Assembly (NCBI RefSeq): GCF_032884065.1
Contig: NC_088881.1
Coordinates: 2,600,001 to 2,664,000 of the forward strand
Direction of reading: 5' to 3'
Source of the DNA: Artemia franciscana
Taxonomy: Eukaryota > Arthropoda > Branchiopoda > Anostraca > Artemiidae
Length of the DNA stretch: 64,000 nt
A program made the translations under genes and the position numbers. The notes beneath the pieces were generated by a model, which did not search any database, was not told where the DNA came from, and worked only from the letters and a program-made list of their open reading frames with translations. This document shows, piece by piece, positions 384-61,790 of the stretch (the first letter of the stretch is position 1; each line of letters opens with the position of its first letter).

Positions 384-1752
384 AGCGTAAAGAGTGGGGC
401 GTTGAGGAGGGGATTAATTCTTTCATATACGAAATAATTTCTGTTCGTTTTAGGTTTTAATGGTGCTCCTTACCTTCAGTTACAAAAACTTGTTTTTTAT
501 TCAATTTGTTTTTGGATTAATGCAAGTTTTGATTTTGGCTCACCGCACATGAATAATTAAGCGAAATTTGCATATTAATTTTTCGGGGGGCTAAATGGCT
601 CTCTCATAGTTTTGATAGGAGGATTTTGATAAAACAAGGGGTGGGGGAGGAGGCCTAGATGCCCTTTAATTTTTGGTTACTTAAGAAGGCAAATAGAATT
701 TTTCATTTTTTTACGAACGTTTTTATCAGTAATAAATATACGTAACTTAAGAATTAACTTACGTAACGAACTTCTATACTTGTATATTTTTTTACGTATA
801 TGAGGGGCTCACCGCCTCGTCAATACCACGCTCTTTACACTAAAGCTTGAATTTTGTCCCAATTCTTTAAGAATGACCCCTGAATCACAAAGTCCGTAGA
901 ATAAATAGTTGAAATTAATAAAAATACTTTAGCGTAAAGAACAACGTATTGAGGAGAAGACGAACCCTCCTTATATAAGTAATAATTTCTGTTCATTTTA
1001 GGTTCGATAATGCTCCTTACTTATTATGTTAGATTATCCTACGCCCCCTTCATGGTAATTCTCGTAGCTTATGGTAAATTCCTCCATGGAAAGATCCTCC
1101 CACGCAACCCCTCCCCCGAACCCTCCACGCCACAATGTGGAAAAGCCTCCCTGAAAATGTCTGTACACTTCCCAATAACCATTACTATATGCAAACAATG
1201 GTCAAAGTAAGTAGCTTGCAGCCCCTCCCCCGGGGACTTTGGGGGATTAAGTCGACCTGAATGACATAATTATTAGGTTTTTGACTATGCTGAACAAAAT
1301 GGCTATCTCAAAATCTTAATCCGGTGACTTTGGGGAAAAATGAGCGTGGGAGGGGGCCTAGGTGCCATCCAATTTTTTGGTAAAAAGGGCACCACTTTTA
1401 ATTTCCGTTAGAATGAGGCCTTTCACGACATTCTAGGACCACTGGGTAGATGCAATCGCCCCCGGAGAAAAAAAACAACAAAAAAAGCAAACAAACACGC
1501 ATCCGTGATCTGTCTTCTAGCAGAAATGCAAAATTCCGCATTTTTGCACATAGGAGCTTGAAACTTCTTCAGCAGGGTTATATTATTGGTATTTACAGAG
1601 TAATTATTACAGATTTGGTATTTACAGAGTAATAATTACAGAGTAATAATTACAGAGTAATTATTGGTATCAAAAAATTCCATTTTTTAGAGTTTCGGTA
1701 ACTGTTGACCCGGGTTGCTCCTTACTACAGTTCGTTACCATGAACTGTTTGA
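384..1752 (+). mobile_element. Element A, copy 1 (left end truncated)
   Basis: This is a member of the main dispersed family of the window. It starts inside the right arm of the terminal palindrome (agcgtaaagag, then the word ctgttcgttttaggttttaatg) and continues through the internal hairpin module at about 820-1010. It ends at the small terminal hairpin (1727-1748), directly preceded by tgctccttact. The left arm is missing, so the copy is truncated. Three copies of 'acagagtaataatt' at about 1597-1660 are a private short tandem expansion. The open frames here are not shared as proteins between copies, so the element looks non-autonomous. Confidence 0.75.
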
Positions 1753-2083: not shown

Positions 2084-3004
2084 CATAGATAAGAATTATT
2101 TGCAACAAAACGAACATACAATGATTATACTATAATAATCCCCAGAAAGGCTCCTCGGCCTGTAAAGGAGGGAGAAGACACACGAGTTATTCAAGCCTTA
2201 ATTTGGAAAGCAAAGAAAGGATTAAAAAGCTACAAAGAATGTAACATTATAGAGCAAAAAAAAATCCTGTGATATAACCGGTTTAAGTTCCTAATGCTTT
2301 CAGACTATAAAGTGTATTATTGGCCAACCCTCCCCGGAATTCCCCTTCTGCAGCGATTCCGAATACAGAAGCAGACGTTAGTCACTCGTCTCCTGCAGAT
2401 TTTATACGCCTGTCACGACTTGCAGTAAATTATGACCTGTTATATTGATTAACAGATAAACAATACTGTTTAAATGATAGTTGCGCTTCGTCTTGCATTA
2501 TTGCAATGAAGATATTAAGTTATGGTAATTTGGGTAGGTGTGAATCCTTCCTTAAACGTATGATGGACTGGTGTCAATCATTTGGGTTATTGGCATGCGT
2601 GCGATATAACAGCTTACGTAAATTCGTTAAACAGAAATATTGACAGTAATCCTACAGTTCATGGTATGGGACTGATAGTAAAGAGCGACCGTCCCAACAG
2701 TTACCGACTTCTCGTATAGACAAACGCTAGGGGAACAATGTATGCATAAAAAGAATGCCTGTCTTGTTCTGGTTCCAAATATATGCTTTTTTTAAGTTTA
2801 AAGGTAATCAACGAAATTTAATAGCATATATAAATATTGTGTAATTTCAGAAAAGGGAAAATTGCCCTGAAAATGTGATCCGATTCAGATGAAAATTACA
2901 AGTCTATTTTTGATGGTGATAAAACTCTCTCATAAACAAATAAAAATAGAGGTTTCCTTCAAATTTCCTAATTGAAATCAGGATTAAATAGTTTTCATTC
3001 ATAG
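2084..3004. other. Intron or spacer upstream of the zinc-finger exon
   Basis: There is no gene, RNA or repeat I can support here. It is AT-rich unique-looking sequence ending in the splice acceptor of the zinc-finger exon, and is presumably the end of an intron of the hamlet-like gene whose 5' exons lie left of the window. Confidence 0.4.
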
Positions 3005-3264
3005 GTTGTAGTCCGTACCTCGAGCCCAAGCAGTACAAAGTCTTCAGCGTCATCAAATAGTGATCCTGCCATGCGTGGACGTGATCGTTACTCCTGCCGG
3101 TTTTGTGGTAAAGTGTTTCCACGTTCGGCAAACCTTACAAGACACCTACGAACACACACAGGGGAACAGCCTTATAAATGTAAATACTGCGATAGGTCGT
3201 TTAGTATTTCGTCAAATCTACAAAGACATGTAAGGAACATACATAACAAGGAGAAACCATTTCG
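3005..3264 (+). CDS. Hamlet / PRDM3-PRDM16-like zinc-finger protein, exon with C2H2 fingers 1 and 2 of the C-terminal cluster
   Basis: This internal exon belongs to a nuclear DNA-binding regulator of the hamlet/MECOM/PRDM16 family. Counting from the Met codon at 3071, finger one has C9-x2-C12-x12-H25-x3-H29 and finger two has C37-x2-C40-x12-H53-x4-H58. They are joined by a TGEQPYKC linker, and the words [14 protein letters not shown] and [20 protein letters not shown] are diagnostic of this family. The frame is open upstream of that Met to an acceptor at 3004 or 3011, with a Ser-rich stretch, so Met 3071 is internal, not the start. The donor is cg|gtaagt after 3264 and leaves two bases of an Arg codon, which the exon at 17442 completes. 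The PR/SET domain and N-terminal fingers would be left of the window. Family assignment is firm; the exact 5' boundary is not. Confidence 0.92.
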
Positions 3265-3864: not shown

Positions 3865-4163
3865 TTACATAAAAAAAAACTAGTTTTTTTTAACTGAAAG
3901 TAAGGAGCGACATTAAAACTTAAAACGAACAGAAATTACTCCGTATATGAAATGGATTGTTCCCTCCGCAATCCCTCGCTCTTTACGCTAAAGCTTTTAA
4001 TTGTTTTAAAAAGCAGAATTGTGACAAAGAGTCAAACTTTAGCGTAAAGAGCGAGGGATTGCGGAGGGAACAATCCATTTCATATACGGAGTAATTTCTG
4101 TTCGTTTTAAGTTTTAATGTCGCTCCTTACTTTCAGTTAAAAAAACTAGTTTTTTTTATGTAA
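3865..4163. repeat. Long terminal palindrome of element A copy 2
   Basis: The two arms of about 120 bp are almost exact reverse complements around a ~50-bp spacer. Left-arm words such as actgaaagtaaggagcgac and ctctttacgctaaag reappear in reverse complement in the right arm. Transcribed, this would fold as a long double-stranded hairpin. Equivalent palindromes occur at 8644-8935, 27934-28215 and 60150-60432. Confidence 0.85.
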
Positions 4164-5221
4164 TTTCTGAACGTTTTTGAATTAATGCATGTTTGATTTT
4201 GACTCTCCACGCGTAAACTATTCAAATGAAATTTGTATATTAATTCCTTTTTTGGCTAAATGGCTTTCTCTTAGTTTTGATCATACGATTTTGAGAAATA
4301 TGGGAGGGGAAGGAGGCCTAGTTGCCATGCAATTTTTCGGTTACATAAAAAGGCAACTATTAATTTTAATTTTAACGAATTTTTTGATTAGCAAAAAATA
4401 TACGTAACATTAGAATTAACTTACGTAACAAACTTTTATGTTCTTTAATTATTATTATGTATATGAGGGGGTTTGTACCCTCGTTAATACCTCGTTCTTT
4501 ACAGTAAATCGTAAGTTTTGTCCCAATTCTTTAAGAATGACCCTGAATCAGAAAGGCCGTAGAATAAATAGTTGAAATTACTAAAAATACTTTAGCATAA
4601 AGAGCGAGGTATTTATCTCCTCCTAAGTACCTTGCTCTTTATTCTAAAGTATTTTTAGAACCCCTCATATGCGTAATAATCTCAGTTCGTTTTAATTTTC
4701 AATGCTACTTCTTCCTTTCATTTGAAAAAACTTTTCATGTTTATTTTTCATTGTTTTCTTATAGTAATGCTAGAGAATCCTGCGCCCTCTTCATTGAATT
4801 TTTCTTCCTCCATGATAGATTCCTCCAAGGAAAGATCCTCCAACATAGCCCCCTCTCCTCAGCCCCACCCCCAAACAAGAAAAAATCCCCCTGAAAACGT
4901 CTGTACACTTCCCAATAACCATTACTATATGTAAACACTGGTCAAAGTTTGTAACTTGCAGCCCCTCCCCCAGGGATTGTGGGGGAATAAGTCATCCCCA
5001 AAGACATAGTTATTATGGTTTTCGACTATGCTGAACAAAATGGCTATCTCAAAATTTTTATCCGTTGACTTTGGGAAAAAAATGAGCGTGGGAGGGGGCC
5101 TAGATGCCCTCCAATTTTTTTGGTCACTTAAAAAGGGCACTAGAACTTTTCATTTCCGTTAGAATGAGCCCTCTTGCGACATTCTAGGACCACTTGGTCG
5201 ATACGATGACCCCTGGGGAAA

Positions 5222-5223
5222 AG

Positions 5224-5255
<32 letters not shown>
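5222..5255. repeat. Poly-A run inside element A
   Basis: An almost pure A tract of over 30 bases lies inside the element. Other copies have shorter A or T tracts at the same site, so it is a length-variable simple repeat in a fixed place and not a retroposon tail. Confidence 0.8.
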
Positions 5256-5257
<2 letters not shown>

Positions 5258-5710
5258 AACACGCACCCGTGATTTGTCTTCTGGCAAAAAATACAAAATT
5301 CCACATTTTTGTAGATAGGAGCTTGAAACTTCTACAGTAGGGTTCTCTGATGCGCTGAATCTGATGGTGTCATTTTCGCTAAGATCCTACGACTTTTAGG
5401 GGGTGTTTCCCCCTATTTTCCTAAATAAGGCAAATTTTCTCAGGCTCGTAACTTTTGATGGGTAAGACTAAACTTGATGAAAGTTATATATTTAAAATCA
5501 GCATTAAAATGCGATTCTTTTGATGTAGCTATTGATATCAAAATTCAATTTTTTAGAGTTTTGGTTACTATTGAGCCGGGTCGCTCCTTACTACAGTTCG
5601 TTACCACGAACTGTTTGATTTGTGTACCATGTTGGAAAGTCTTTTTTAAGAGGGCTGGTTGTCAACGACTTTGGCTTTCAAAATTTCAATACACACTCAA
5701 TGCATAATGA

Positions 5711-26544: not shown

Positions 26545-28217
26545 TCGTCAAACAGTTCGTGGTAACGAACTGTAGTAAGGAGCGACCCGGCTCAATAGTA
26601 ATCGAAACTCTAAAAAAAGGAATACATAAAAAAAATCGCATTTTATGCTGATTTTAAATATATAAGTTTCTTCAAATTAAGTTTTTGTCATCAAAAGTTA
26701 TGAGCCTGAGAAAATTTGCCTTATTTTGGAAAATAGGGAAAACACCCCCTAAAAGTTGTAGAATCTTAACGAAAATCACACCATCAGATTCAACGTATCA
26801 GAGAACCCTTCAGTAAAAGTTTCAAGCTCCTATCTACAAAAATGTGGAACTTCGTATTTTTTGCCAGAAGACCGATCACGGGTGCGTGTTTATTTGTTTT
26901 TTTTTTTGTTTTTTTTTTCCAGGGGGTCATCGTGTCGACCAAGTGGTCCTAGAATGTCGGAAGCGGGCTCTTTCTCACGGAAATGAAAAGTTCTAGTTCC
27001 CTTTTTAAGTGACCAAAAAATTGGAGGGAACCTAGGCCCCCTCCCACGCTCATTTTTCCCGAAGTAAAACGGATCAAAATTTTAAGATAGCCATTTTGTT
27101 CAGCATAGTCGAAAACCATAAGAACTATGTCTTTGGGATGACTTACTCCCCCACAGTCCCCAGGGGAGGGGCTGCAAATTACAAACTTTGACCAGTGTTT
27201 ACATACAGTATTGATTATTGGGAAGTGTAGACGTTTTTCAGGGGGATTATTTTGGTTTGAGGGGAGGGGGCTATGTGAGAGGATATTTCCTTGGAGGAAT
27301 ATGTCATGGGAGAAGAGAAATTCAATGAAGGGGGATCAGGATTTTCTAGCATTATTAAAAAAAAACAATGAAAAAATAAAAATGAAAAAGTTTTTTCAGC
27401 TGAAAATACGGAGCAGCATTAAAACTTAAAACAAACAGAGATTATTAAGCAAATGAGGGGTTCATATCCTCCTAAATACCTCGCGCTTTACGCTAAAGTA
27501 TTTTTAGTAATTTCAACTATTTATTTTACGGCCTTTCCGATTCAGGGGTCATTCTTAAAGAGTTGGGACAAAACTTAAGCTTTAGTGTACAGAGTGAGGT
27601 ATTAACAATGGGACAAACCCCCTCATATACGTAATAAAAATATAAGAATATAAAAATTCGTTACGTAAGTTAATTCTTAAGTTAGGTATATTTTTTACTA
27701 ATAAAAACTTTCGTTAAAAATTAAAAGTTCTAGTTGCCTTTTCAAGTAACCAAAAAATTGGAGGGCAACTAGGCCTCCTCTCCCCTTTTTTTCTCAAAAT
27801 CGTCTAATCAAAGTTAAGAGAAAGCCATTTAGCCAAAAAAAGAAATAATATGCAAATTTAGTTTTAATAATTTATGTGCGAAGAGCCAAAATCAAACATT
27901 CATTAATTCAAAAAAGTCCAGAAATTAAATAAAAAAACTGTTTTTTTAACTGAAAGTAAGGAGCGACATTAAAACTTAAACGAATAGAAATTACTCCGTG
28001 TATGAAAGGGGCTGTACCCTTTTCATCGCCCCGCTCTTTACGTAAATTTTTTTTACTGTTTAATAAAGTAGAATTGAGAGAAAGAGTCAAACTTTAGCGT
28101 AAAGAGCGGGGCGTTGAGAAGGGAACAGCCCCTTTCATATACGGAGTAATTTCTGTTCGTTTTAAGTTTTAATGTCGTTCCTTACTTTCAGTTAAAAAAA
28201 AACTCGTTTTTATTTAA
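26545..28217 (-). mobile_element. Element A, copy 4 (apparently full length, about 1.67 kb)
   Basis: This reverse-oriented full copy opens with the 22-nt hairpin at 26552-26573 (stem cagttcg/cgaactg, loop tggtaa), then agtaaggagcgacccgg. The middle has the C/G-rich region and the second hairpin module (about 27390-27640). It closes with the large palindrome (27934-28215). Order and length match copy 2, which defines the family's full structure. Confidence 0.8.
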
Positions 28218-38324: not shown

Positions 38325-39515
38325 AATCAAACAGAAAGTGGTAAGAAACTGTAGTAAGGAGCGACCCGGCTTAATAGTAACCAAAACTCTAAAAAACGTA
38401 ATTTTGATACCAATAATTACATCAAAAGAATTATATTTTTATGCTGATTTTAAATATATAAGTTTCATCAAGTTTGGTCTTACTCATGAAAAATCAGGAG
38501 CCTGAAAATATTTGCCTTATTTTAGAAATTAGGGAATCACACCCCCTAAAAGTCATAGAATCTTAACGAAAATCACACCACTAGATTCAGCATATCAGAA
38601 AACCCCAATATAGAAGTTTCACGCTACTATGTACAAAAATGTGGAATTTCGTATTTTTTGCCAGAAGATAGATCACAGGTGCATGTTTATTTTTTTATTT
38701 TTTCCCAGGGGTGATCGTATCGACCCAATGGTCCTAGAATGTCGCGAGAGGGCTCATTATGACGGAAATTAAAAGTTCTAGTTCCCCTTCTAAGTGACCA
38801 AACAATTGGAGGGCACGTAGACCCCCTCCCATGCTCATTTTCCCCCAAAGTCACCGAATCAAAATTTTTAGGTAGCCATTTTGTTCAGCATAGTCGAAAA
38901 ACTTAATAGCTATGTCTTTGGGTACCACGTAATCCCCTACAGTTCCCAAGGGAGGGGCTGCAAGTTACAGTCTTTGACCATTGGTTACATATAGTAATGA
39001 TTATTGGGAAGTGTACAGACATTTTCAGGGGGACTTCTCCGCATTGCAAGGGGAGGGGGGTTCAGGGGGAGGGTGCTACGTGGTAGGATATTTCCATGGA
39101 GGAATTCATCAAGAGGAAAGAGAATTTCCATGAAGAGGGCGCAGGATTTTCTTGCATTATTAATAAAAACAAAGAGAAAAAAATTCAACTGGAAGTAAGG
39201 AGCAGCATTAAAACTTAAAACAAACAGAAATTATTAGGTATAGAAGGGGATTCGTCTCCTCCTCAATGCCTCGCTCTTTGCGCTAAAGTACTTTGAGTAA
39301 TTTCAACTATTTATTCTACTGCCTTTGTAATTCAGGGGTCATTCTTAAAGAATTGGGACAAAATTCAAGCTTTAGTGTAAAGAGCGAGGTATTGACGAGG
39401 GGTCGAACCCCCTCGTATACGTAATAGAAATACACAAATATAGAAGTTTGTAACGTAAGTTAATTTGTAAGGTACGTATATTTATTACTAATAAAAAATC
39501 AGGCAATGAACATTT
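38325..39515 (-). mobile_element. Element A, copy 5 (large palindrome missing)
   Basis: It begins with a damaged terminal hairpin and 'agtaaggagcgacccggc' (38353 onward). It follows the order of copy 4 through the second hairpin module and ends near 39515 in 'acgtatatttattactaataaaaa'. The ~300-bp end palindrome and neighbouring sequence are absent. Confidence 0.75.
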
Positions 39516-39659: not shown

Positions 39660-40832
39660 TCAATCAGTTTGTGGCAACAAACTGTAAGTAAGGAGCAACG
39701 CGGCCAAACAGTAAATAAAATTCTAAAACACAAAATTTTGATAATAACTAATTCATCAAAAGAATTGGTATTTTATGATGATTATAAATAAATAAATTCA
39801 TGTTTCATGAAACCTGCCGAAGCTACAAGCCTGAGAAAATTTGCCCAATTTTCAAAAAAGGGAGAAATCCCCCCAAAACTCAAGCGATCTTAATGAAAGT
39901 CACACCATCAGGTTGAGCATATCAAAGAGATAGAGGTTTCAAGCTCCTATTAGCAAAAATATGTAATGTTTATTTTTTTGCCAGAAAAAGATAGTGAATG
40001 TATGATATTTTTTTTCTTCTTTCTTCCAGGGGTGATCGTATCGGACCACTGATCTTAAGAGACTGAGAGAGGGCTAATTCGTACGGAAATCGAGATTTTT
40101 AGTACCCTTTTTGAGTGACCATAGAGATTAGTGGGCAACTTGCCCTTCTTCCATCTTCCTTCCCCCAAAGAAATCCAATCAATATGTTGAGATAGCCAGA
40201 GTTGATTAAAAATAGTTGAAGAACCCAGTAACTATGCCAATAGGGCTGTAAGGACCCCGATAGTCTCTGAGAAAAGAGCTGCACGTTATGCAATTGGTCT
40301 ATTGATAAACATACAGTATTTGTTAATTCGATATCTTTGGATTTTTTTTTTGTTCGGGAATTTTCCAAGGGGAGAATTTTGTGTGGGGAGGAAAGTTTCT
40401 GGGGGAAGTTTTACGCAGGGAGAATTTTTCGGAATTCGAACTCGGAATTCTTTTTATTTTTTCTTGTTTTTGCTTGGCTGCTCAATTCTACGTGTGGAAG
40501 AATTGTTCCAGGTTAATTGTCTGGGGAGAATTTTCTGTAGGGTGTAAAGTGTTCAGAGGGAATTTTCTGGGGGGATTTTAGTTGAGGGAACCTTCAGCAG
40601 GAAGATATTTTGCGGGGAGGAAATTTTTCAGTGATGGCGAGGGAATTTCCTTGCATGATTTTGAAAAAATTAGAAATTAAATTAAAAATCAATTTTTTTT
40701 TTCAGCTGAAACTAAGGAGCAATAGGAGCTATAAAAACTAAAAACGAAAAGAAATTATTATATATATGAAGGGGAGCTGTACCACAAATCTCGCTCTTTA
40801 CACTAAAGTTTGCACAATTCTTTAAGAACAAG
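39660..40832 (-). mobile_element. Element A, copy 6 (old, diverged)
   Basis: It starts at hairpin 39665-39684 (cagtttg-tggcaa-caaactg), where both sides of one stem pair differ from the consensus yet still pair. Internal order is kept (aaagtcacaccatcaggtt, ggggtgatcgtatcgg, gagagggctaattcg), followed by a G-rich stretch of 'gggg(a/g)gaattttc' repeats at about 40360-40620 and half of the terminal palindrome (ctctttacactaaagttt). Confidence 0.65.
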
Positions 40833-43794: not shown

Positions 43795-44490
43795 AGTTAT
43801 CAAACAGCTTGTGGTAACAAACTGTAAGCAAGAGTGATTCGGCCAAATCACTGGGGAGGATTTACGGGGAAAATATTCCACTGATGGGGGAATATTAATT
43901 TCAAAAACGACCTGGAATTAAGTATAAAAAATATTTCTTTTTTTGGAATGAAATTAGAATAAGGAGATTTTTTCTAAGTGGAATTGCCCAAGGACATTTT
44001 GTGGGTGAATTTTCAGCAAGGATGGGCTTGTTCAAGGGAAATTTTACTCGTGATGAAATTTCCTTGGAGGAATTTTTTGTGGGGGAATGTTCCGTTAAAG
44101 GGGAGGTGAATTTCCCGGCTTTATTTGGAAAACAATAAGAAACTAAATAAAAAAACAAGTTTTTCAACTGAAAGTAAGGAGCAACATGAAAGCTTGAAAT
44201 GAAAAGAAATAATTCCTTGTATGAGGGTGATTGCCGCCTCTTCAGTACTTGGCTCTTTAGAATAAAGTTTGACTTTTGTACCAAATCTTTAAAAACAACT
44301 CCCGAGACACAAGAGCCGTTAAATTAGAACAATAAGAAGCTTTTTTAAAATGTAAAAAAAACGTTTTTGCGTGAAGAGCGAGGGATTGAGGAGGGGGCAG
44401 TCCCCTCATATATGGAATCTTTTCTGATCGTTTTAAGTTTTAATATTGCTTTATAATTATAGTTGAAAATACTTTTTTTTATTTAATAGA
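43795..44490 (-). mobile_element. Element A, copy 7 (internally deleted, diverged)
   Basis: Hairpin 43805-43824 (cagcttg-tggtaa-caaactg) is followed by 'gagtgattcggccaaat' and then jumps to a G-rich stretch (43860-44120). It closes with the diverged end palindrome (actgaaagtaaggagcaac at about 44167, 'ctctttagaataaagttt', 'gcgtgaagagcgaggg', to about 44480). Confidence 0.65.
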
Positions 44491-54555: not shown

Positions 54556-56500
54556 AAAGCGTTGCAAGGGACTGTCCCTTCCTCTATCCTGTACGCTGAA
54601 GTCTTGAAGCTCTTTAAAAATACTTCACATAGGTTCAACAGCCTTTTTGTTTGAGCAGTCTTTCTTTAAGAATTGTGACAAAAAGTCGAACTTTAATGTT
54701 AAGAGAGCGAGGGTTGAAGAAGGGGCAGCCCATCTCATATACGGAATAATTTCTGTTCGTTTTAAGTTTTAATGTTGCTCCTTTTCAACAATTTTCTTAT
54801 ATTTAATTTTGATCGTTTTTAAACCACGCCAAATCTCATGGTAGAAATTTCCTCTCCCTCCTTAAAAACTTTTGTATGTTTCCCAATGACAAATACACAT
54901 GTAAACAATGGGCAAATTCCATAAAGATAATTCAACATAAGTTGATTTTATTTGACAAACAAAAACACAGAACATTTTTGGTGCACCTGCTAAGAAAACC
55001 ACTAAGGGTAATAATCTTCCATTCTAGATATTTAAAAAAATACTGTTTATATTATTCTACTTAGTAATAGTACTAAATTCACACATATACAAAAGCCATC
55101 ATACATAAAATACAATACATAAATTCTACTCTTTTGTGAGGGAAAATCTTTTGGCTGTGGCCTTGAAGGTTACCAGTTGACTTACATTTCGAATCGCAAC
55201 CGATATTATATCCCATACTCAGGGAAAAAAAAAACTTCTTAATTCAAAAGAAGCTCTAGTCGTTTTTCTGAATTGATGTAGCCTACAATGATTAAATGAT
55301 TTGATGCTCCTCAGGTGTCATGAGCATGACTAATAGAGGGAAGTAAACTATTAAGATATTTTTATGTGAAAATAGTAACTTGATAATCTCCAGTTTTTGA
55401 AACATCAAGGTTTGAAATAACTTGCTCCAGAGGCGGGGCTAGGGAAGGGAGAGAATAGTTATTGGACGTTTCAACTATGCTGAATCAAATGGCTATCTGA
55501 AAATTGTGATTAGTTGTATTTTGGTAAAAAACGTGCGTAGGAGAGGAGCTAGTTACCCTCCAACCTTTTTGGATTGCTTAAAAAACACTTGAAATTTTGC
55601 TTCTATTTTGAATGAGCCCTCTCCCGATCTTGTAGAACCGTTGGTTCTGTTGAATTACCTTGGGAAAAAAAACATATAATCACTCATCAGTCAGCCTCCT
55701 TTTGGCAAAAAATACAAAATTCATCATTTTTGTAGATAGGGCTTGAAACCGTCCTGTTGTGGCGCAGTGGATTTGACCTTAGCTTGGTAATACGGGACCC
55801 AGAGATCGAATCACGCTGCAGGAATGCACTCTAGGGCCGACGCAGGGACCTTAGTAGTCAAGAAGCGTCGTTAATTCTTAAATAATAAAAGGGCTTGAAA
55901 CCTCTGGAGCTGCGTTCTCTGATATACTGAATGTATGATGTAATTTTCATTTAGATCAATTATCTTTTTGGGGGATGCTCCCCCCAATCTTTTTGGTCAG
56001 TTAAAAACAGCACTATAACTTTTTCTTCCCGTTCAAATGAGCCCTATCGTGGTCTGCTGCTTATGAATATGGGATTTCTTCGGTGAAAAAGTGGGTGTGG
56101 GAGGGGTTGAGTTGCCCTCCATTCTTTTTGGGTACTTAGAAAGAGCACTCAAACTATGAGCCCTCTTCCGACCTTTTTGGATCATTGGTTCAATACGATC
56201 ACCCCTGGGAAAAAATAACAAAATAAATAAACACGCATCCCTGACCTTTCTTCTGTACAAAAATACAAAATTACACATTATTGCAGATAGAAGCTCGAGA
56301 ATCCGGCAGATTCTCTCAGACTCGCGGCTTTGATGGACAATAGTAAAATTGAATGAATTTTATATATTTAGGATCAGCTTAGAAAACCAATTCTTTTGAT
56401 GTGTCAATTGTTATCTAAATTCTGTATTTTAGAGTTTCGGTTACCATTCGGCTGAGTCACTCCTTATTTACAGTTCATTACCATCAACTGTTTGATCAAA
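54556..56500 (+). mobile_element. Element A, copy 9 (old, with foreign inserts)
   Basis: It starts in the palindrome ('ctgtcccttcctctatcctgtacgctgaag', 'gttaagagagcgaggg', 'ggaataatttctgttcgttttaag' at about 54565-54780). It is interrupted to about 55430 by unrelated DNA and resumes with 'caactatgctgaatcaaatggctatctg'. A partial duplication of the interior lies at about 55980-56200 (the 'gagccct' block occurs three times). It ends at 'cattaccatcaactgtttgatc' (56500). A SINE sits inside at 55751. Confidence 0.6.
55751..55891 (+). mobile_element. tRNA-derived SINE, family S2, with perfect 12-bp target-site duplication
   Basis: A 141-bp insert flanked on both sides by gggcttgaaacc (55739-55750 and 55892-55903), which is itself part of element A sequence. 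Box A (tggcgcagtgg) and box B (gagatcgaatc) give a pol III-type tRNA head. The tail is taaataataaaa. It is different from family S1. The intact duplication indicates a comparatively recent retroposition into an old DNA element. Confidence 0.85.
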
Positions 56501-59395: not shown

Positions 59396-60438
59396 ATATC
59401 AAACAGTTCGTGGTAACGAACTGTAGTAAGGAGCGTCCCGGCTCAATAGTAACCAAAACTCTAAAAAATGGAATTATGCTGGGGGAACTTCCCATTGAGG
59501 AATTTGTCAAGGGGGAAGAAAATTTCCATGAAGGGAGCGCAGAATTTTCTAGCATTATTTAAAAAACAATGAAAAAATAAATATGAAAAACTTTTTCAAC
59601 TGAAAGTAAGGAGCAGCATTAACACTTAAAACGAACTGGAATTATTACACATATGTGGGGCTCACCTCCTCCTAATATCTCGCTCTTTAAAGTATTTTTA
59701 GTAATTTCGACTATTTATTCTACGGCTTTTGTGATTCACGGGTCATTCTTCAGAAATTGGGACAAAATATAAGCTTTAGTGTAAAGAGTGAGGTACTGAC
59801 GAGGGGGTGAACCCCCTTGTATACGCGATAAAAACATGAGAATACAGAAGTTCGTTACATAAACTAATTTGTAAGTTACGTATATCTTTTACTAATAAAA
59901 ACATTCTTAAAAAAAAAAAAAAAGTTCTAGTTGCCTTTTTAAGTAACCAAAAAATCGGAGAGCAACTAGGCCTCCTCCCCCACTCCTTTTTTCCTCAAAA
60001 TCATTCGATCGAAACAATGAGAAAGCCATTTAGCCAAAAAAAAAAAAATAAAAAAAAATGCAAATTTCGTTTTAATTATTCATCTGCGGAGAGCCAAAAT
60101 TGAAAAATTGCATTGATTCTAAAACGTTCAGAAATTAAATATAAAAAAAAACAAGTTTCCTTAACGGAAAGTAAGGAGCGACATTAAAACTGAAAACGAA
60201 TAGAAATTACTTCGCATACGAAAGGGGCTGCTTTCTCATCAACGCCCTGCTCTTCACGCTAAAGTTTTTTACTGTTTTAAAAAGAAGAGTTGAGAGAAAG
60301 AGTCAAACTTTAGGGTAAAGAGCGGGGCATTGATGAGGAGGCAGCCCCTTTCGTATACGAAGTATCTGTTCGTCTTAAGTTTTAATGTCGCTCCTTACTT
60401 TCAGTTAAAAAAACTTGTTTTTTTCTTATTTAATTCCA
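59396..60438 (-). mobile_element. Element A, copy 10 (internal deletion)
   Basis: It opens with a perfect hairpin at 59403-59424 and 'agtaaggagcgtcccggctcaatagtaacc'. It jumps from 'ctctaaaaaatggaatta' directly to 'tgctgggggaacttccc', so about 700 bases of the interior are missing. It then continues through the second hairpin module and the large palindrome (60150-60432). Both ends are well kept, so this is a good reference for the termini. Confidence 0.8.
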
Positions 60439-61439
60439 CCCTGAGTCGTAATGGGTTTGACAATGCTATCAGCGAAGTCCTCAACCTTAACACTTACTAA
60501 GGTTAAGGGTTAACCATAGATCCATTTTTATTAGTTGAAATATAATTTAAATGATTTGTTTTAAAAGGGATATGCCAGCAATATTGAAGATGAGGTAATA
60601 TTAACAGTATTAATAAGTAGTAATAATTAATATAATGTTTGATTAAAAGTAACATTAACTTTTAAACAAATATTAAAAATTAATACCAATTACTGGTTAT
60701 AATGAATTAATTATTTTTAATTAGTACCAATGTTATTAGTTTGATAATATTAAGGTACTTCCTTGTTATCCAATATACCCTCGAGAATTTGGATCTTTAA
60801 GATCAGACAATAACCGATTTATAACTGTCTATATACGGAGACAATTAGCTTAGACCCAGTTGAAATCTTCGTTGTGCGTGTATTTTTATTAAATTTTTAA
60901 TGTATAGAGATTGTATTTTGATGCGGTTAACTTCTGTTAAATATTTAATTTAATGTGGTCGTAGCGGCCCCCCTTCCATAATTTTTTGTTGTAGTTTCCA
61001 TAATGTTGTTACTTGCATAATCTTACTTTGGTATATTTTGTTTAACCTAATGTCAATTCTCGAGTGTGTACTGGCTAACAAGGAATATTAATTTTAGTTG
61101 TAACTGATATTACGTAGCAATTAGTAGTTTTTAAATAGTAATTTCCCGTCACAGGGGGGGGGGGGAATATACTTTTAGGAATGAAATAAAAGTATTTAAG
61201 ATCGTTTTAAAGTAGTTTTCAAATTTTTTGTGGTTTCCAATGAATGGACCCAGTCCTTAATTAATTATGTTTTTGTATTCAGTCCGGTTAGGGCATATCT
61301 TTTTGTCTAAATCTACAGAAACCTGAACTTTCTGTCTTGGAACTCTATTGATAAATAGACAGATAGATCAATGTCTATGGCCCTTGGGCTTTTTAAATAC
61401 ACTGATTTAACAAAAGCAAAAAATCATACTAAACAAGGA
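60439..61439. other. Unannotated AT-rich stretch
   Basis: 'taatattaac' words abound at 60590-60760 and a G-run lies at 61155. No gene was found. Confidence 0.3.
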
Positions 61440-61790
61440 GATCATGGTTGCAGTGGTAGCTGCAATCTACTAAAGAGCGAACAAACGCCCCTAAGTAACC
61501 AAAAGTTAAAAAATGCGTTTTGAATAAAAACTGCCTAATGAAAAAAATTGCCATCTGATACTGATTCAGGAATAGTAACTATTATTTCGGTTCGTCTTAA
61601 AAGTAAAAGCTCATTACGAAAAGAAATTCATGGTGATTTCGAAAAAAGCCTCAAACCCCTCTAAAATGGTGCCAGATGAAAATGAAAAGTGTACCATTGG
61701 AATTAGCATTGTCGAAAATCCTATTCAGGTGAATTACAGTCCCCCTCCTTGAATAACAAGAAAAATGTTTATTTTTTGCATCGGCAGCAC
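61440..61790 (-). mobile_element. Element C, copy 2
   Basis: It begins with a hairpin (ttgcag-tggtag-ctgcaa, about 61447-61464), then tactaaagagcgaac and agtaaccaaaagttaaaaaatg. The later words 'cctcaaacccctctaaaatgg', 'gtaccattggaatta' and 'ttacagtccccctcctt' match copy 1 at 14.3 kb in reverse. The end design parallels element A although the stem sequence differs. Confidence 0.65.

Follow-up and report, generated by a model that had tools for sequence, protein, structure and literature searches.

What kind of mobile element ends in a hairpin that keeps its shape while its letters change? The question is raised by a 64,000-nucleotide stretch of the Artemia franciscana genome (here, the window), in which a first-pass annotation had described two transposon families, A and C, that share the fold, loop class and flanking motif of a terminal hairpin and differ in its stem. 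A paired change in the stem of one A copy had been taken as covariation, and covariation as a sign that the hairpin is recognized by shape.

Hairpin ends in the window and in the genome

The reported hairpins are present. CAGTTCG-TGGTAA-CGAACTG occurs at 26553 and 59404 on the plus strand and also at 5613 on the minus strand, TTGCAG-TGGTAG-CTGCAA occurs at 61448 (plus strand) and is followed by CTACTAAAGAGCGA and AGTAACCAAAAGTTAAAAA, and the variant CAGTTTG-TGGCAA-CAAACTG is found at 39665. The flanking motif quoted for A is also there, but not letter for letter, as the copy at 59404 reads GAGCGT rather than GAGCGA and the copy at 26553 has AGTAATCGAAACTC, with two differences. Genomic copies extend the description. 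The 5' end of family A consists of TCAA, a 9-bp stem, a GGTA loop and the subterminal repeat AGTAAGGAGCGAC, and that of family C consists of TCAT, a different 9-bp stem, the same GGTA loop and TAGTAAAGAGCGA. The stem is ACAGTTCGT-GGTA-ACGAACTGT in A and GGTTGCAGC-GGTA-GCTGCAACC in C, each of 9 bp around a four-base loop, and the sequence that follows is AGTAAGGAGCGACCCGG...AGTAACCAAAACTC in A and TAGTAAAGAGCGAACCACAGCCCATAGTAACCAAAA in C. The window contains the following copies and parts of copies.

59399..60433, plus strand: family A copy, internally shortened, 1,035 bp, 5' TCAAACAG..., 3' ...TTATTTAA
59403..59424, plus strand: A 5' hairpin, ACAGTTCGT at 59403-59411, GGTA at 59412-59415, ACGAACTGT at 59416-59424
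59425..59437, plus strand: A 5' subterminal repeat, family form AGTAAGGAGCGAC, here AGTAAGGAGCGTC
60133..60435, plus strand: A 3' fold-back of about 300 bp
61442..61512, plus strand: family C 5' end, TCAT, stem GGTTGCAGT/GCTGCAATC, loop GGTA, then CTACTAAAGAGCGA and AGTAACCAAAAGTTAAAAA
62377..62446, plus strand: second C-type 5' end, more decayed, TCATGGTTGAAGCACTAGTTACAACATAGTAAAGAGTGA, stem mostly gone
26548..28217, plus strand: A copy with both ends, 1,670 bp
3865..5618, minus strand: A copy with both ends, 1,754 bp, 3' end ATGTAA
38327..38395, plus strand: A 5' end, stem CAGAAAGT/AGAAACTG unpaired at four positions
39660..39729, plus strand: A 5' end with one-base-longer spacing, stem CAGTTTG/CAAACTG
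43800..43835, plus strand: A 5' end, decayed, stem CAGCTTGT/ACAAACTG
1684..1752, minus strand: A 5' end, stem CAGTTCAT/ACGAACTG, with a single CpG change left uncompensated
56426..56495, minus strand: A 5' end, stem CAGTTGAT/ATGAACTG, a compensated pair followed by a broken one

In the copy at 59399..60433, a host T lies directly 3' of the element at 60434, and the outer arm of the fold-back holds an inverted subterminal repeat (GTCGCTCCTTACT) and an AT-rich palindrome (AAAAAACTTGTTTTTT). The C copy at 61442 is a decayed member of its family. No open frame of 150 amino acids from a common start codon was found in the window.

Genome counts were taken over the 1.27-Gb assembly, whose 6,468 contigs include C19, the source of the window (G000:C19:2600001-2664000). 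A pattern that prescribes flanks and loop but allows any stem finds 32,016 A ends (strict form; 0 for a reversed-pattern control) and 226 C ends (2 for the control). Exact flanks were demanded, and thus both counts are lower bounds on all copies. First-look scoring covered the best 40 of 339 candidates for A and the best 40 of 742 for C. Within the window itself the excess is modest: a hairpin ends no more than 3 nt upstream at 7 of the 37 sites within two mismatches of AGTAAAGAGCGA, and at 13 of 208 sites for 30 shuffled motifs. Across all sequence examined, a hairpin was present at 59 of 260 AGTAAAGAGCGA sites (33 A-type, 23 C-type including a third family, D, and 3 other), a set that is enriched because many loci were chosen for carrying A or C ends; one reversed and three shuffled motifs gave 1/21, 2/26, 1/50 and 1/26 in the same set. 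The counts confirm that hairpin ends are commoner than chance. Scans with the end pattern also returned 1 match in a set of viral contigs and 13 in a set of genome contigs, all in contexts that we read as chance, and BLAST of the window against the viral locus found no window sequence there.

Stem changes between and within families

Between families, stem letters change while the fold stays. Over the 44 bases 3' of the stem, A and C are identical at 26 letters, and the local alignment score of 44 compares with a maximum of 26 in 2,000 dinucleotide shuffles; on this alignment the two flanks are homologous. Family D, known from one locus (L039, minus strand), reads TCGT-TGTTGCCCC-ATTA-GGGGCAACC-T-AGTAATGAACGA, and two inner stem pairs are changed on both sides relative to C, such that pairing is compensated. 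Stem length, four-base loop and spacing are kept in A, C and D, and the letters of the stem differ. The consensus 5' hairpins have fold energies of -9.3 (A), -11.4 (C) and -11.6 kcal/mol (D), and for each of the three, 0 of 200 shuffles folded as well. Thus, the description of A and C as sharing loop, flank and spacing around different stems holds, and their identification as related mobile elements with a terminal hairpin is supported. The claim that the fold survives stem change applies between A and C and not to every copy, as the A copy at 38332 (CAGAAAGT/AGAAACTG) has four unpaired positions. At the D locus we also note that the hairpin, GTTGCCCC-ATTA-GGGGCAAC, is followed by about 28 tandem units (approximately positions 2,494 to 3,200), and that the 24-bp unit contains the subterminal motif AGTAATGAACGA.

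Within families the picture is different, and the covariation that had been proposed did not survive genomic counts: stem changes were compensated no more often than chance would give, an outcome that the annotation itself had named as refuting. For C, 100 of the 226 stems were listed (70 distinct) and their right arms were shuffled 2000 times. The stems carried 185 one-sided and 20 two-sided changes, and 8 of the latter were Watson-Crick compensated against a shuffle mean of 7.1, a number reached in 837 of the 2000 shuffles. The paired fraction, 0.846, was likewise that of shuffled stems (0.845). For A, the paired change of the 39665 copy (C6 to T with G3' to A) was set against a noncompensating control double, T6 with T2'. 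Exact stem counts were 653 for T6, 1,019 for A3', 229 for T6 with A3', 392 for T2' and 71 for T6 with T2'. T6 was therefore present in 18.3% of copies with A3' (229/1,248) and in 15.3% of copies with T2' (71/463), an odds ratio of 1.24 (Fisher p = 0.15). When six clustered control copies on contig C91 were counted once, the odds ratio was 1.33 (p = 0.06). Both doubles lie far above independence, which predicts about 32 for T6 with A3' and about 12 for T6 with T2' when the perfect-stem count is estimated from 23 of 35 rows, and such an excess is what unequal copy ages or subfamilies would give.

We conclude that the paired change at 39665 very probably arose as two CpG sites of a single old copy decayed by chance, and that it has no functional bearing. 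C6G7 and C2'G3' of the A stem are both CpG, both changes are CpG transitions, and in A copies with 1 to 8 mismatches such transitions were found at 5 of 192 CpG sites against 4 of 504 other C/G sites, although these numbers are small. Moreover, linkage in the compensating double does not significantly exceed that in the control, and thus the paired change needs no selection. A small excess of the compensating double is nonetheless left, and since doubles exceed independence for both pairs, subfamily history could mask a weak effect. Within-family covariation was dropped as evidence of shape recognition, because C sits at its shuffle mean and A is not significantly above its control.

Anatomy of the elements and their insertion sites

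How A is built was read from 33 copies, 27 in 20 best-match stretches and 6 in the window, a sample biased toward near-consensus copies. The same far end, ...GTCGCTCCTTACTTTCAGTTAAAAAAACTTGTTTTTTTTATTTAA followed by T, was found in 23 of the 33 and was absent from 10. Copies with both ends are 775 to 1,762 bp long, and 17 of the 23 fall between 1,670 and 1,762 bp; a full A is thus about 1.7 kb and runs 5'-TCAAA...ATTTAA-3'. The 5' hairpin starts 4 nt from the 5' end and folds strongly. As the shared far end reveals, the 13-bp repeat AGTAAGGAGCGAC is present near each end in opposite orientations, and each copy has a palindrome on its outer side. The 5' repeat is set in by about 25 bp, and the 3' repeat lies about 33 bp from the 3' end, inside an AT palindrome that is itself weak, its fold being equalled by 12 of 200 shuffles. 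Just ahead of the 3' terminus is a fold-back of about 300 bp, and the ends of A do not match one another as terminal inverted repeats. The longest open frame per copy spans 73 to 149 amino acids in the 23 copies with both ends, and a Pfam search with the longest (149 amino acids) gave no match. We recognize no coding sequence in A.

Some A ends are one base longer in the spacing from hairpin to repeat (CTG-TA-AGTAAGG), namely those at 39660 and 56495 (minus strand) in the window and copies at three other genomic loci (L026, L031 and L040). In this longer form, the match of the subterminal repeat to the 3' end extends to 19 of 20 letters. The AACTG of the 5' hairpin arm continues the subterminal repeat, such that the hairpin includes part of the 5' repeat. 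For C, homologous far-end modules of C-like elements (AGTAAAGAGCGAAGTTGAAACTTAAAACGAACA), sought through the inverted motif, were found at four loci (L023, L027, L050 and L053), and they did not prove a 3' boundary.

Joined-flank searches returned a spanning empty-site match for 4 of 33 A left ends, of which three were inspected (the fourth is L040). The sites are CCCATA/TTGC(ATT) at 97% identity, GTGTTA/TTCTC at 74% and GTGTAA/TCCC at 70%, so two of the three are old. All three fit insertion of TCAAA...TTAA before a T with A on the left, and no target-site duplication is evident, with the proviso that duplication of a single T would be formally the same as none. Of the 30 copies that start with TC (36 were found), 19 are preceded by A, 7 by T and 4 by G, and T follows ATTTAA directly in 24 of 24. 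Strict A^T targeting is thus at odds with the T or G of 11 of the 30, and insertion into TT does not describe the sites either. At L055, judged by left junctions, C copies follow GTGA or ATAA at points where related internal sequence has GTGATATAG. This locus (G000:C21:21538780-21541800) holds three C-type 5' ends within one 3-kb stretch, two of them directly after the same internal sequence, CCATCCGTAAATRTRA, an arrangement that suggests repeated insertion at one site type.

A rolling-circle reading, its rivals and candidate partners

What A and C are is, in our estimate, answered with a probability of roughly 80% by nonautonomous rolling-circle transposons of the Helitron superfamily, nearest to the Helitron2/Helentron group. 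The first-pass annotation had mentioned Helitron/Helentron-type elements without claiming a family, and the link is now the best reading: palindromes at both ends, inverted subterminal repeats, a 5' TC, no evident target duplication and insertion before T. A Rep/helicase supplied by another element would nick beside the 5' TC and move single-stranded DNA, and the hairpins may mark the element ends as single-strand structures. At the 3' end, CAGTT plus the repeat is the complement of the 3' arm of the 5' hairpin (AACTG) plus the repeat; this complementarity implies that the 5' hairpin would come open if the two ends paired. Bao and Jurka proposed the same for Helitron2, where the two repeats would pair, release the 5' hairpin and so fix where replication stops (PMC3627910). 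Selection might act on the few source elements and produce paired changes between families, while inserted copies decay uncompensated. Paired stem differences among A, C and D are what would be expected were the fold needed solely by the small number of elements that give rise to new copies. Several features count against the rolling-circle reading: A ends in TTAA instead of CTRR, it does not target TT, its 5' repeat is set about 25 bp in, its 3' palindrome is weak and the partner was not found.

Might the stem instead be a double-stranded palindromic site read by a dimeric protein, with a partner of its own for each family? The stem sequence itself is the common state, perfect in roughly two of every three A ends (23 of 35 readable rows), and neither C nor A has an excess of compensated changes, both of which this idea accommodates. 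Yet A, C and D keep stem length, loop and spacing but not stem letters, and the anatomy is of the rolling-circle kind, in which single-strand hairpins are expected; we consider a double-stranded site unlikely. Far less probable still is a cut-and-paste (DDE) transposon as the source of A and C, which would then be its MITEs or fold-back elements. The long fold-back at the 3' end and the inverted subterminal repeats would suit such an element, but neither end repeats the other as a terminal inverted repeat, and the three empty sites lack target duplication beyond a possible single T.

If A and C are rolling-circle elements, how new is their design? Hairpins at both ends, asymmetric inverted repeats and compensatory changes all have precedent (PMC3627910, PMC5148889, PMC4067079). 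Helitron2 is defined by both-end hairpins with asymmetric inverted repeats, and compensatory mutations in two related Helitron2 elements have been noted (PMC3627910). A resembles Helitron2 in its hairpins at both ends (the 3' one weak), its 5' T, its nonautonomous members, a 3' inverted repeat just inside the hairpin and a 5' hairpin that shares the repeat. Helitron2 repeats, however, are 8 to 15 bp long with the 5' copy 0 to 2 bp and the 3' copy 20 to 30 bp from the end (PMC3627910), so that the 13-bp repeats of A, at about 25 and 33 bp, differ in position, and the Helitron2 target is TTTT^T/C (PMC3627910) whereas that of A is mostly A^T. FoHeli1 and FoHeli2 of Fusarium oxysporum start with TCAG, end AT-rich in ATTTT and have hairpins at both ends; like A, they have an inverted repeat (12 bp) and insert before T (TNAT^T) (PMC5148889). 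Unlike A and C, which start with TCAA or TCAT, they are fungal with a known RepHel, and the accessible text of PMC5148889 makes no mention of a counterpart to the 3' fold-back of about 300 bp. HINE/DINE-1 elements are, like A, very high-copy and noncoding, with 11- to 15-bp subterminal inverted repeats, a palindrome at one end, an extra inverted repeat near the other and no target modification, but they prefer TT targets with flanking T runs, their repeats lie 2 to 4 nt from the 5' end and their Helentron partners, with Rep, helicase and endonuclease, are known (PMC4067079). Canonical Helitron1 shares with A the 5' TC, insertion without duplication, mostly between A and T, and a hairpin before the 3' end; as far as the accessible parts of PMC3627910 and PMC4067079 describe it, Helitron1 ends in CTRR rather than TTAA and lacks the 5' hairpin and inverted repeats. 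Thus, the hairpin ends are real, the kind of element is already known, and A and C fit it with different details. Whether those details amount to a distinct end design (TC and a hairpin outside an inverted repeat, at the 3' end an AT palindrome outside that repeat together with a fold-back of about 300 bp, an A^T target, a Rep lineage not yet tied to such ends, and a hairpin with a GGTA or ATTA loop and an 8- to 9-bp stem read by shape while its letters drift between families) is doubtful, and we put it forward only tentatively.

A search confined to open papers, including the accessible text of PMC11492255, yielded none on these Artemia families. Helitrons make up 8.81% of the A. franciscana genome (PMC11492255), and family A, with at least 32,016 ends, helps explain that share. 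If the 5' hairpin is read by shape, A, C and D would be natural stem-swap experiments within one genome, and their different stems with kept loop and spacing would make it directly testable which of the two, fold or letters, a rolling-circle Rep depends on.

Which element might supply the Rep was pursued through the Rep genes of the genome. A pattern of Helentron-type Rep motifs found 31 sites, seven of which read QQRGSPHIH. One locus on contig C11 (L071, L070; G000:C11:44627700-44631900) carries a Helitron_like_N Rep fragment of Helentron type (FFRVEFQQRGSPHIH) with a UCH-type ubiquitin protease frame upstream; the accessible text on Helentrons mentions OTU proteases instead (PMC4067079). No element end was reached in these 4.2 kb, and upstream of the related Rep copies, contig C17 has no similarity to C11 and contig C3 has 192 bases only. 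Among at least 80 matches to the C11 Rep (from the best 150 of 1,726 candidates) are open frames of 2,446 to 2,701 amino acids, as follows.

C4112:12901: 2,446 amino acids
C6:2730180: 2,701 amino acids
C10:1770397: 2,492 amino acids
C76:535668 and C3032:15338: 2,679 amino acids

A stray A-like arm beside one was the only A-like sequence at the Helentron-type loci examined, and the Rep loci examined yielded no autonomous element bearing A or C ends. We conclude that Helentron-type Rep genes exist in the genome, although none could be tied to the ends of A or C.

Canonical Helitrons are also present. In a genome search with the Helitron_like_N profile, the best 150 of 7,436 candidates scored as matches, and the seven loci examined (L043 to L049) form one canonical Helitron family by mutual similarity. 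These abundant elements were rejected as a partner of A, as a comparison with the 1.7-kb A showed no similarity at the level searched. At L042, where A lies next to a canonical Helitron, the A copy breaks off without resuming in the stretch examined and does not form a chimera bounded by A ends on both sides. The canonical family, represented by L047:1186-6246 and its relatives, is young and abundant, and in its RepHel the N terminus consists of STPR repeats (PF21107), followed by the Helitron_like_N and PIF1 domains.
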